Source: a virus. From it: a DNA stretch of 31,498 nt. The stretch lies in IMG/VR virus record IMGVR_UViG_3300017697_000060, positions 1 to 31,498 of that record; one strand, 5' to 3'. The translations under genes were made by a program, and so were the position numbers. A model generated the notes under the pieces. The model saw nothing but the letters and a program-made list of their open reading frames with translations, was not told the DNA's origin and made no database searches. Shown here in pieces: positions 9,860 through 31,498 of the stretch (its first letter is position 1; each line of letters opens with the position of its first letter).

Positions 9860-10078
9860 ATGAGATTATTTGAGGACGATTGGGGTGTAGATGAAAGCCC
9901 AGTAGACAATACAGAAATAACAACGACAATATTATATTTTAGTACTGATGAGTTAAAGGAATTTAAAAAACTTTCAAAGGTTGGTATTAAAAAGGAATTT
10001 GGTCAGGAGTTTCAACAAAAGGGAAACCTTTCAGATTTTTTATTAAAAATATTAAGAGAACGCTATGAAAATTATTAG
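9860..10078 (+). CDS. Small conserved hypothetical protein
   Basis: 72 residues with an acidic N-terminus and a helical second half (LYFSTDELKEFKKLSKVGIK, then GNLSDFLLKILRERY). Similar sequences are common, as I recall, beside recombination genes of flavophages, without assigned function. Its last 14 bases overlap the oxygenase gene, linking the recombination block to the DNA-modification cassette. Confidence 0.6.
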   Translation: MRLFEDDWGVDESPVDNTEITTTILYFSTDELKEFKKLSKVGIKKEFGQEFQQKGNLSDFLLKILRERYENY

Positions 10079-10943
10079 AATAAAAAGAAAGCTTAATGAA
10101 AAAAAAGCGGCTAAATTAAAAAGTAAATTTCTTACAGAAAAAAATTACGATACAGTAATAACAGAAAGCTGTGATGGATTTGACGCTAACACTGGTGAGC
10201 TTTTATTTAGGTTTAGAAAAAAGGCTATACCTATGGATGTTTTAAAGAGTGGTTACAATGCCTTTAAGGATTCAATATCCTTAAATGCTGGACGTGGTAT
10301 TGCTGCGGGTGGTTATCATAAACAAATAAGAAAGGATGGAACAGTAGGTAAGTTTGATGTTTCCCCAAAGGTTGAGAGTGGTAACGTAGGCTTTATGGAT
10401 GCAAGACCTGGTAGCGGAACGGTTGCGGTTTGTAGGAAGACAGCATTCGCAAAAGAACATTTTGACAAGTATCAGGCAGGTATTCCATTTGTTAAATATA
10501 TAGATAAGATGTATAGTGAGCTATGTCCTGAGCATTACAACAGACAAAAGGCAATAGCACTTGGTACAAATAAAAACTATGTTATAGGAGATACTAGCTT
10601 CACAACTGTAACAGTAAATAAAAATTTCAGAACTGCCGTTCATCAGGACTCAGGAGACTTTAAAGATGGTTTTGGAAATTTAATAACATACCGAGAGGGT
10701 AAATATGATGGGGGGTATTTTGTTCTTCCTGAATATGGGGTTGCTATTGATATGCAAAACCAAGACATCTTATTTGTGGATGTACATAAATGGCACGGTA
10801 ATACAGAATATGTAAATTGTAGTGAGGACTGGTTAAGAATTTCTTTCGTTCTTTATTACAGAGAATATATGTATAAATGCAAATCCCCTTCAGAAGAATT
10901 AGAACGTATTAAAATGGACCAAACAGGCTACCTTAAACTTTAA
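10065..10943 (+). CDS. TET/JBP-family 2-oxoglutarate/Fe(II) dioxygenase acting on DNA bases
   Basis: 292 residues. The double-stranded beta-helix signature is clear: HQDSGD gives the iron ligands His193 and Asp195, HKWHGNTE gives the distal His244, and Arg258 in WLRISFV suits the 2-oxoglutarate carboxylate. The upstream block GFMDARPGSGTVAVCRKTAF (109-128) and the segment GGYFVLPEYGVAIDM (216-230) are those of the TET/JBP group rather than of AlkB. Family members hydroxylate 5-methylcytosine or thymine in DNA. The adjoining glycosyltransferase suggests that the hydroxymethyl product is then glycosylated. It overlaps the preceding gene by 14 bases. The substrate base cannot be told from sequence alone. 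Confidence 0.85.
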   Translation: MKIIRIKRKLNEKKAAKLKSKFLTEKNYDTVITESCDGFDANTGELLFRFRKKAIPMDVLKSGYNAFKDSISLNAGRGIAAGGYHKQIRKDGTVGKFDVSPKVESGNVGFMDARPGSGTVAVCRKTAFAKEHFDKYQAGIPFVKYIDKMYSELCPEHYNRQKAIALGTNKNYVIGDTSFTTVTVNKNFRTAVHQDSGDFKDGFGNLITYREGKYDGGYFVLPEYGVAIDMQNQDILFVDVHKWHGNTEYVNCSEDWLRISFVLYYREYMYKCKSPSEELERIKMDQTGYLKL

Positions 10944-10946
10944 GAT

Positions 10947-11717
10947 ATGGATTATATAATAGCTATACCGAGTTATAAAAGACCGGAGACAATTAAAACT
11001 AAAACACTTTCCCTTTTAAATGCTCACAATATACCAAAGGATAAGATAACTATATTTGTTGCCGATAAAGATGAGTATAATCAATATGAGAAATCCCTAA
11101 ACAAAGAATACAGGATGGTTGTAGGAGTACCCACAATAGGTGAGCAAAGAAACTTCATTGAGTCTTACTATGATGAAGGCACAAGGCTTGTTATGTTAGA
11201 TGATGATTTGGAAGGTATATATATAAAGAATGAAAACTCACTAACACCAATATCTGACCTTGAAAATGATTTTATTGTAAAGGGATTTAAAGCCTGTGAA
11301 GAAACTGGGGCTAAATGTTTTGGTCTTTATGCAGCATCAAATCCCTACTTTATGCTACACAGGACATATACAAAGCTATCCTATATAATTGGTTGTGCGT
11401 TTGGAGTAATAGTTCAGCACGATGATTTTTTAAAAAGGATAACAAATCACGGGGAGGATTACGAGTACAGTATAAGACAATATATAAAAAACAAAAAGCT
11501 TGTTAGGTTTGATGATATTACCTGTAAAAGTAAATTCTTTACTGAGGAGGGCGGTTTACAAACCATACGAACAAAAGAGTACATATATGATTCAATAAAA
11601 TGGATACAGGATAAGTTTCCAGATTACTGTACAATGTATATAAGGAAAACAACTGGAAATGCAGAGTTAAGATTAAAGGATAAAATAAAAAACAGAAATC
11701 AGGCAAAGTTATTTTAA
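10947..11717 (+). CDS. GT-A glycosyltransferase, TET/JBP-associated type (TAGT-like)
   Basis: 256 residues. The N-terminus MDYIIAIPSYKRPETIKTKT and the strand ITIFVAD mark a GT-A nucleotide-sugar-binding fold. MLDDDLEGI (residues 83-91) supplies the DxD metal site, and HGEDYEYSIR (168-177) is the later acidic motif expected near the catalytic centre. Its place three bases after the TET/JBP gene matches the phage arrangement in which an associated glycosyltransferase adds sugar to hydroxymethylated bases in DNA. It has no membrane segment, so it is presumably cytoplasmic. Sugar donor and target base are unknown. Confidence 0.8.
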   Translation: MDYIIAIPSYKRPETIKTKTLSLLNAHNIPKDKITIFVADKDEYNQYEKSLNKEYRMVVGVPTIGEQRNFIESYYDEGTRLVMLDDDLEGIYIKNENSLTPISDLENDFIVKGFKACEETGAKCFGLYAASNPYFMLHRTYTKLSYIIGCAFGVIVQHDDFLKRITNHGEDYEYSIRQYIKNKKLVRFDDITCKSKFFTEEGGLQTIRTKEYIYDSIKWIQDKFPDYCTMYIRKTTGNAELRLKDKIKNRNQAKLF

Positions 11718-11744: not shown

Positions 11745-12227
11745 ATGGAGAATTTTAATAAACAACAGTACGAGTTATTTTTTGGGGGTTCAGTATCTAA
11801 ATATTTTAACGGACATTTAGACCTTTACATAGGAGATAAAGACTTTATATTTGCGGATAAGGGAACTGACCTTATTCCAGGAGTAAATATGACAGCCGAA
11901 ATTAAAACAGTTGGAATTAAGGGGTTTGACGGTAAAAAGCTGACATTAAATCAGGCTCGTGAATATTCATCTACAGTAGGATTGATAGATAACCTTGGTA
12001 GAACAATGGTAAGCTACCTTTTCGAGTATCACAAGGAGGTTAAAAAACCCTATGTTATAGTAACACCTTTTATCAGGGATAATGGAACTCAAAAAAGGGC
12101 TGTTGATTATTTGGATTTAAATAGGTCAATTATGCTTTATGTAGATATTAATGACCAGTTTTGCAAATGGATTAGCGGAGATAGATACGTAGGAGTCAAA
12201 CCCAAAAACCCATTAGTAACAGTTTAA
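11745..12227 (+). CDS. Unrecognised protein of the modification cassette with a nuclease-like ExK motif
   Basis: 160 residues. A segment with Asp42, then AEIKT (Glu52-x-Lys54), then NQAREYS (Gln70) has the order of a PD-(D/E)XK core, but the rest is not recognised. A C-terminal half with PYVIVTPFI and LNRSIMLYVDI is compatible with core beta strands. It follows the glycosyltransferase after 27 AT-rich bases. It may be a modification-dependent or modification-sensitive nuclease or an accessory factor of the cassette; that is inference from position and one motif. Confidence 0.55.
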   Translation: MENFNKQQYELFFGGSVSKYFNGHLDLYIGDKDFIFADKGTDLIPGVNMTAEIKTVGIKGFDGKKLTLNQAREYSSTVGLIDNLGRTMVSYLFEYHKEVKKPYVIVTPFIRDNGTQKRAVDYLDLNRSIMLYVDINDQFCKWISGDRYVGVKPKNPLVTV

Positions 12228-31189: not shown

Positions 31190-31498
31190 ATGGCGATTAA
31201 CGAAAGACTTATAGATACAGAGGTTGCAGCAGCAGGAAACGGTGGAGCAGGAACTGGGAATCAAGAAGAAGGATTAATACTTCATTTAGATGCTAATGAT
31301 GTAGATAGCTACGATGGAGACGGTTCAGAGTGGATTGACATAACTAACCACGAATATACACCTGCTACAAACGTTTCAGAACATTTTAATACTGTTTTAT
31401 ATACTGGTAACGGAACATCAAACTCCTCAGAACAAAATGTTACAGGAGTAGGATTTCAACCAGATTTAGTTTGGATAAAAAATAGAGGAGAAACCAGA
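31190..31498 (+). CDS. Second tail fibre, paralogue of the fibre at the window start (3' end outside window)
   Basis: 103 codons are visible from ATG at 31190. The first 63 bases that can be compared (from 31195) are identical to bases 1-63, then the two genes diverge, mostly at third positions, while the proteins stay very similar: INERLIDTEVAAAGNGGAGT in both, then DANDVDSYDGDGS, then EHFNTVLY. After about residue 70 the two differ by insertions. It is therefore a separate paralogous fibre and not the same sequence read twice. Confidence 0.75.
   Translation, partial: MAINERLIDTEVAAAGNGGAGTGNQEEGLILHLDANDVDSYDGDGSEWIDITNHEYTPATNVSEHFNTVLYTGNGTSNSSEQNVTGVGFQPDLVWIKNRGETR

Follow-up and report, generated by a model that had tools for sequence, protein, structure and literature searches.

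Genes of the cassette and their setting

The DNA analysed here (the window) is a virus record of 31,498 nucleotides, a 31.5-kb contig with 32% GC, whose genes include a terminase, an ERF recombinase, a sigma-like factor, NinG and an M15 peptidase; its host probably belongs to the marine Flavobacteria. Its two ends fall within one type of tail gene and have 60 identical bases in common, so little of the genome seems to be missing; the contig appears nearly complete and may lack a little. Positions 1-220 and 31194-31414 hold two diverged copies of the start of this DUF7483/LamG tail gene, identical over the 60 bases and divergent thereafter, which represent either a tandem arrangement of tail genes or variation between strains where the contig ends. 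The nearest named phage is Nonlabens (Persicivirga) phage P12024L (NC_018272; complete, 35.7 kb). No relatives of the window's TET were found in the prokaryote genome collection, which therefore pointed to no prophage copy.

Two genes, three bases apart, form the core of the cassette (Table 1). The first encodes 292 amino acids and matched the Pfam family Tet_JBP (E 4.8e-28; 97.9 bits against a cut-off of 34.9), with phrog_24024 as its best PHROG (5.7e-93). Its assignment by profile to the TET/JBP dioxygenases is beyond doubt, and its putative activity is the oxidation of a 5-methylpyrimidine in DNA. The AlphaFold model (pLDDT 91.7) predicts the TET-type double-stranded beta-helix fold: it aligned with TET2 at Z 21.3 (3.3 Å over 255 residues), with CMD1 at Z 19.7 and with NgTET1 at Z 18.1, CcTET also being among the top matches (Z 17-21), whereas other 2-oxoglutarate enzymes scored 14.4 or below. 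Tet_JBP was the sole Pfam match over cut-off, with neither the J-DNA-binding domain of JBP1 nor the SNF2 domain of JBP2 found. The PHROG name of its second match, phrog_6059 (queuine tRNA-ribosyltransferase), was dropped, as the member of that group from Mycobacterium phage BrownCNA matches Tet_JBP, its only Pfam match, albeit below the curated cut-off. The BrownCNA protein itself is annotated as a queuine tRNA-ribosyltransferase, and both the BrownCNA kinase and the 5hmdU kinase of phage M6 are annotated as terminase small subunits.

The second gene encodes a protein of 256 amino acids that by profile belongs beyond doubt to the TET-associated glycosyltransferases (TAGT, PF20691; E 5e-15, 56.4 bits, cut-off 27.5; phrog_842, 5.9e-17) and would putatively transfer a sugar to hydroxymethyl-pyrimidines in DNA. 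Its model (pLDDT 87.8) has a GT-A fold; the best Foldseek match was TarS (1.8e-8), followed by other GT-A enzymes including POMGnT and GnT-I. Across an alignment of 26 TAGTs, with 15-91% identity to that of the window, just ten columns never vary, including D86 and D87 of the DDD site and Q252 and F256 at the C-terminus. PDB sequence searches with the TET, the TAGT or their alignments returned nothing significant.

Table 1. Positions of the cassette's genes and sites in the window.
Feature	Position	Strand	Basis or remark
Conserved 72-aa protein	9860..10078	+	Shares 14 bases with the start of TET
TET/JBP-family Fe(II)/2-oxoglutarate dioxygenase	10065..10943	+	PF12851, AlphaFold model
HxD iron ligands H193 and D195	10641..10649	+	Sequence; invariant in 12 diverse phage TETs
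Distal iron ligand H244	10794..10796	+	Sequence; invariant in 12 diverse phage TETs
2-oxoglutarate-binding R258	10836..10838	+	Sequence; invariant in 12 diverse phage TETs
TET-associated glycosyltransferase (TAGT), GT-A fold	10947..11717	+	PF20691, structure model
DDD (residues 85-87), candidate metal/nucleotide-sugar site	11199..11207	+	Alignment of 26 TAGTs
C-terminal QAKLF (residues 252-256), candidate clamp-binding tag	11700..11714	+	Alignment, tag statistics
160-aa protein with invariant D..D..ExK signature	11745..12227	+	Cluster of 14

An earlier, sequence-only reading of this DNA had proposed a TET/JBP dioxygenase followed by a glycosyltransferase, and its account of the two genes holds. 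Both ORFs and their spacing are as described, the four 2OG-Fe(II) residues of the oxygenase are all in place, and the IPSYKRP and DDD motifs that it reported lie in the glycosyltransferase, the former at residues 7-13. Both families scored above their profile cut-offs in agreement with a confident structure model, and no profile pointed to a non-DNA dioxygenase. The extent given for the cassette (10065-11717) was too short: the 72-aa gene upstream belongs to it, and homologues of the 160-aa gene downstream follow TAGT elsewhere.

These neighbours were examined in clade A, a fully supported branch of the TET tree that comprises 80 viral loci with TETs 59-92% identical, P12024L and the window. 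Of the 82 loci, 81 have the 72-aa gene as the immediate upstream neighbour of TET; the other begins inside TET. The protein matched nothing in Pfam or PHROG; its conserved sequence (TEITTTILYFS..ELKEFK..KGNLSDFLL) and strict linkage to the clade-A TET are accompanied by what looks like a small ribbon-helix-helix-like organization, making it a candidate DNA-binding protein. Homologues of the 160-aa protein, which likewise matched nothing in Pfam or PHROG, follow TAGT at 13 further loci, and D31, D33, D38 and E52-I53-K54 are invariant in the eight that were aligned. A second small TET neighbour of about 153 amino acids (a cluster of 44, for example L036:9327-9800) has an invariant EIK preceded by acidic residues. 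These signatures suggest that both proteins are candidate PD-(D/E)XK-like nucleases, which might cut unmodified DNA. The two (clusters 11 and 3) are not detectably related: despite the ExK in both, hhalign lent no support to a common origin (probability 0.5%).

An exchangeable slot downstream of TET

Sixty-four clade-A loci extend far enough to show what follows TET. The slot is occupied by a TAGT in 52, by an amino acid:DNA transferase (AADT) plus a kinase in nine and by the kinase alone in two; TAGT never occurs together with AADT or kinase in one slot (0/64). In the remaining locus (L076:10861-12739) a radical-SAM/SPASM protein and a 309-aa protein, both ending in QxxLF, stand in TAGT's place, a pair that possibly carries out a further base decoration. 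The slot is thus exchangeable and exclusive. Decorator switches, of which the tree requires at least 10, are frequent and recent: the TETs of L059 and L061 are identical at 287 of 288 residues, yet the former is followed by AADT and kinase and the latter by TAGT. A limited literature search found no earlier report of such a swap among near-identical TETs.

The 363-aa decorator was identified through phrog_3271 (E 5e-76), which includes a Kuttervirus protein scoring 197.6 bits against PF18724 (Amino acid:DNA transferase), the family to which M6 gp51 also belongs. The 183-aa kinase matched phrog_800 weakly (5e-5 to 1e-4), a group in which M6 gp54, a match to PF18748 (5-hmdU DNA kinase), is a strong member. 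Among the clade-A relatives the kinase occurs in 15 and AADT in 11; both are absent from the vicinity of the window's TET.

A C-terminal motif shared by unrelated decorators

The window's TAGT ends in QAKLF, within a tail predicted to be disordered (pLDDT under 50). Across clade A, a strict C-terminal Qxx[LIM]F was present in 59 of 62 TAGTs and all 15 kinases, in 4/8 N4/N6 methyltransferases, 2/7 C5-methyltransferases (C5-MTases) and 1/9 AADTs, but in none of the 82 TETs and in only 23 of 1429 other ORFs. Twenty of these 23 are the 153-aa protein beside TET, two are the radical-SAM pair of L076, and the last (in L072) sits just upstream of TET. The motif is therefore common to unrelated folds (GT-A, P-loop kinase, N4/N6 and C5 methyltransferases, radical SAM and the 153-aa ExK protein). 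Its codons differ from gene to gene, which indicates that conservation acts on the peptide. A slightly looser pattern found it in none of the TAGTs (0/34) or kinases (0/50) of other TET clades.

In flavobacterial polymerases of the UmuC type, QINLF, QIDLF or QLDLF occurs close to the C-terminus, and flavobacterial DinB-type proteins end in QLxFxF; because these tails resemble QxxLF, the tag has the look of a peptide that binds the host clamp. One clade-A TAGT (L067) ends in QINLF, the very motif of the Nonlabens UmuC-type polymerase. The window's TAGT carries its short motif, which resembles the consensus of clamp motifs, in a predicted disordered tail, as sliding-clamp clients do. We propose that the tag is a docking signal for the host sliding clamp, DnaN, which it would bind; no clamp gene was identified among the scanned ORFs of the window, and a limited literature search found no earlier report of the tag. 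There is a precedent in the T4 alpha-glucosyltransferase, which binds T4's own clamp, gp45 (PMC13216743), whereas the window's tag resembles the bacterial clamp motif.

Thymine or 5-methylcytosine

Searches with PF00145 and PF00303 found neither a C5-MTase nor a thymidylate synthase (the dUMP hydroxymethylase type) in the window, as the sequence-only reading had noted, and the latter was also missing from 18 related records. C5-MTase is likewise missing from P12024L, HTVC112P, BrownCNA, Cr30, DLP_6, C48C1 and S-CBWM1; of the eight complete isolates with a TET that were checked, seven, from four TET clades, have no PF00145 match at all. Within clade A, 64 of 72 records lack a C5-MTase match and eight have one; on the tree, each of the five rows that carry the gene acquired it separately, and in a few relatives (L058, L037) it lies inside the operon. 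In the Melnitz clade, by comparison, a C5-MTase lies within 5 kb of TET in 66/72 loci (20/20 of those with full flanks), as opposed to 7/151 loci in the four other TET clades (window, HTVC112P, T4-like and Cooper), a contrast that counts as one phylogenetic difference, so that its Fisher p makes the loci look more independent than they are; with so few TET clades, the locus counts are not independent. AADT shows the reverse distribution (21/151 non-Melnitz loci versus 0/72 Melnitz loci). Judging from gene content, phage-made 5-methylcytosine (5mC) would be an unlikely substrate.

The decorators point in the same direction. Phages ViI and M6 are believed to use enzymes of the AADT and kinase type to turn 5hmdU into hypermodified thymidine (PMC6449724). 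Because C5-MTase is absent, and because a near-identical TET is paired with thymidine-hypermodification enzymes, the evidence favours thymine as the simplest answer for the substrate of the window's TET; the earlier inference from the missing methyltransferase thus stands and is strengthened. The P-loop kinase was dropped as a marker of thymine: a kinase of the same family also occurs in 25 of the 72 loci of the C5-MTase-coupled Melnitz clade (L135-L205; for example L166 and L149), hinting at a 5hmC DNA kinase pathway there. Nor does the predicted pocket point to thymine, because its residues D198 and R266, kept in 82/82 clade-A TETs, have equivalents in enzymes that act on 5mC. There, N4 of 5mC is touched by the residue matching D198 (in NgTet1 and CMD1) and O2 by the one matching R266 (in CMD1 and CcTet) (PMC7854593, PMC11040006).

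Comparison with known systems

The closest counterpart is P12024L, in which gp25-gp27 are the 72-aa gene, TET and TAGT in the window's order. Its TET is 65% identical over the full length, it too has no C5-MTase, and its TAGT ends in QLEIF; this TAGT, however, is only 17% identical to the window's, and is followed by an N6/N4 DNA methyltransferase where the window has the D..ExK protein. Burke et al. (2021) reportedly described 5mC hypermodification by phage C5-MTase, TET and TAGT. Melnitz-type loci resemble the window in having TET and, in some, a TAGT-like glycosyltransferase, but the Melnitz TET is only about 25% identical to the window's, and its clade has the C5-MTase beside TET in 66/72 loci, as loci of the window's clade mostly do not. 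In their own right, the window's two genes are an ordinary member of the known phage TET/TAGT kind; what stands out more is that a methylase is lacking, that decorators are exchanged behind near-identical TETs and that they share a tag at the C-terminus.

Hydroxymethyl-pyrimidines generated by TET were reportedly predicted as starting points for such modifications by Iyer et al. (2013). Trypanosomes make base J with JBP1/JBP2 and the J glucosyltransferase, a pathway with which the window shares the Tet_JBP domain and the predicted logic of T -> 5hmU -> glycosylated 5hmU. Unlike in JBP1 and JBP2, no other domain was found in the window's TET; its glycosyltransferase is a TAGT, and its product is a prediction. 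M6-type thymidine hypermodification uses AADT and kinase of the families found in the window's relatives; M6, however, encodes a homologue of thymidylate synthase (gp58), which is believed to supply 5hmdU as a nucleotide, whereas the window's TET would act in DNA. In BrownCNA (a Coopervirus) and Rhodococcus phage Tonitrus, TET is coupled to AADT and kinase as in the window's relatives, and BrownCNA, with ParB, TET, AADT and kinase in a row, shares with the window the lack of C5-MTase and thymidylate-synthase homologues. Operons of this type differ in their very divergent TET (20% identity), a ParB-like gene upstream and the lack of the QxxLF tag. The ParB-like gene is directly upstream of TET in both BrownCNA and HTVC112P (L091 1-3465; L002 6973-8507). 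The Tonitrus set has been proposed as a thymidine-hypermodification system (PMC11955845).

A proposed pathway and its alternatives

From these observations we infer, as a moderately probable reading, that the cassette makes a glycosylated 5-hydroxymethyl-pyrimidine in phage DNA, most likely from thymine (T -> 5hmU -> glycosyl-5hmU), with QAKLF as the putative clamp-docking tag. TET, its family fixed by profile and fold, would hydroxylate the 5-methyl group of thymine in DNA, yielding 5-hydroxymethyluracil. TAGT would then move a sugar from a nucleotide sugar onto the new hydroxyl, giving a counterpart of base J, and docking of its QAKLF on the host sliding clamp would direct the sugar to freshly replicated DNA. 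The modified product would probably block host nucleases; the modification, its base and the shielding of the DNA are all predictions from the genes. In relatives, the same TET would feed other decorating enzymes encoded in the same operon slot.

The main competing substrate is 5mC laid down by a host C5-methyltransferase, the other option left by the sequence-only reading: TET would produce 5hmC at host-methylated sites and TAGT would glycosylate it, a version of the characterised phage TET pathway in which the host supplies the methylase. The match of D198 and R266 to 5mC-reading positions agrees with this, as do the five clade-A contigs longer than 10 kb with a C5-MTase of their own and the action of characterised TAGTs on cytosine-derived bases (PMC13216743, PMC13390438). 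PF00145 was found over cut-off in 43 of 100 sampled Flavobacteriaceae genomes, Nonlabens tegetincola included; the same figure weakens this option, since more than half of the genomes sampled lack PF00145 and the route would fail in many hosts. The distribution of C5-MTase, missing from most complete isolates in four clades and kept adjacent to TET in a fifth, also argues against it, as does the pairing of the same TET with AADT, so far tied to 5hmdU. We consider host 5mC the weaker of the two options and rather unlikely. Far less probable still is that TET works alone, in anti-restriction or in erasing marks on host-methylated DNA, while TAGT acts on other acceptors such as surface glycans or protein. 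GT-A enzymes mostly glycosylate non-DNA acceptors, and in structure TAGT resembles glycan and teichoic-acid transferases; against this, TAGT is the usual occupant of the slot, a DNA-base-type kinase with or without AADT replaces it in 11 of the 12 other loci, and the shared tag ties it to DNA enzymes.

As for the tag alone, QxxLF could be a common docking signal of another kind, one that addresses TET, say, or a replication protein of the phage, a reading that we regard as possible but less likely than not. That TET is never tagged would suit a handle by which it recruits decorators, and the untagged TAGTs and kinases of other TET clades are compatible with this. The identity of some tags with host clamp-type motifs, as in L067, speaks for the clamp instead, as does the tagging of radical-SAM, N4/N6- and C5-methyltransferase proteins of the cassettes.

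Implications for phage DNA modification

Beyond the predicted glycosylation of thymine in the window, a broader reading is one that we hold tentatively, as somewhat short of an even prospect: in a family of small phages, TET would oxidise thymine in DNA and a decorator from a single slot would finish the base by adding a sugar, by adding an amino acid through kinase and AADT, or by radical-SAM chemistry, most decorators being clamp-tagged, which would let modification keep pace with the host replisome, and the window representing the base-J-like version. If true, these phages would obtain hypermodified thymine without changes to the nucleotide pool, TET writing 5hmU into DNA already made, for an interchangeable module to decorate. 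Near-identical TETs with different decorators would offer a natural experiment on what drives the diversity of DNA modification. Should QxxLF bind the host clamp, this would explain how modification is coupled to replication in small phages without a clamp of their own, and new DNA-modifying enzymes could be sought simply by their tag sequence.
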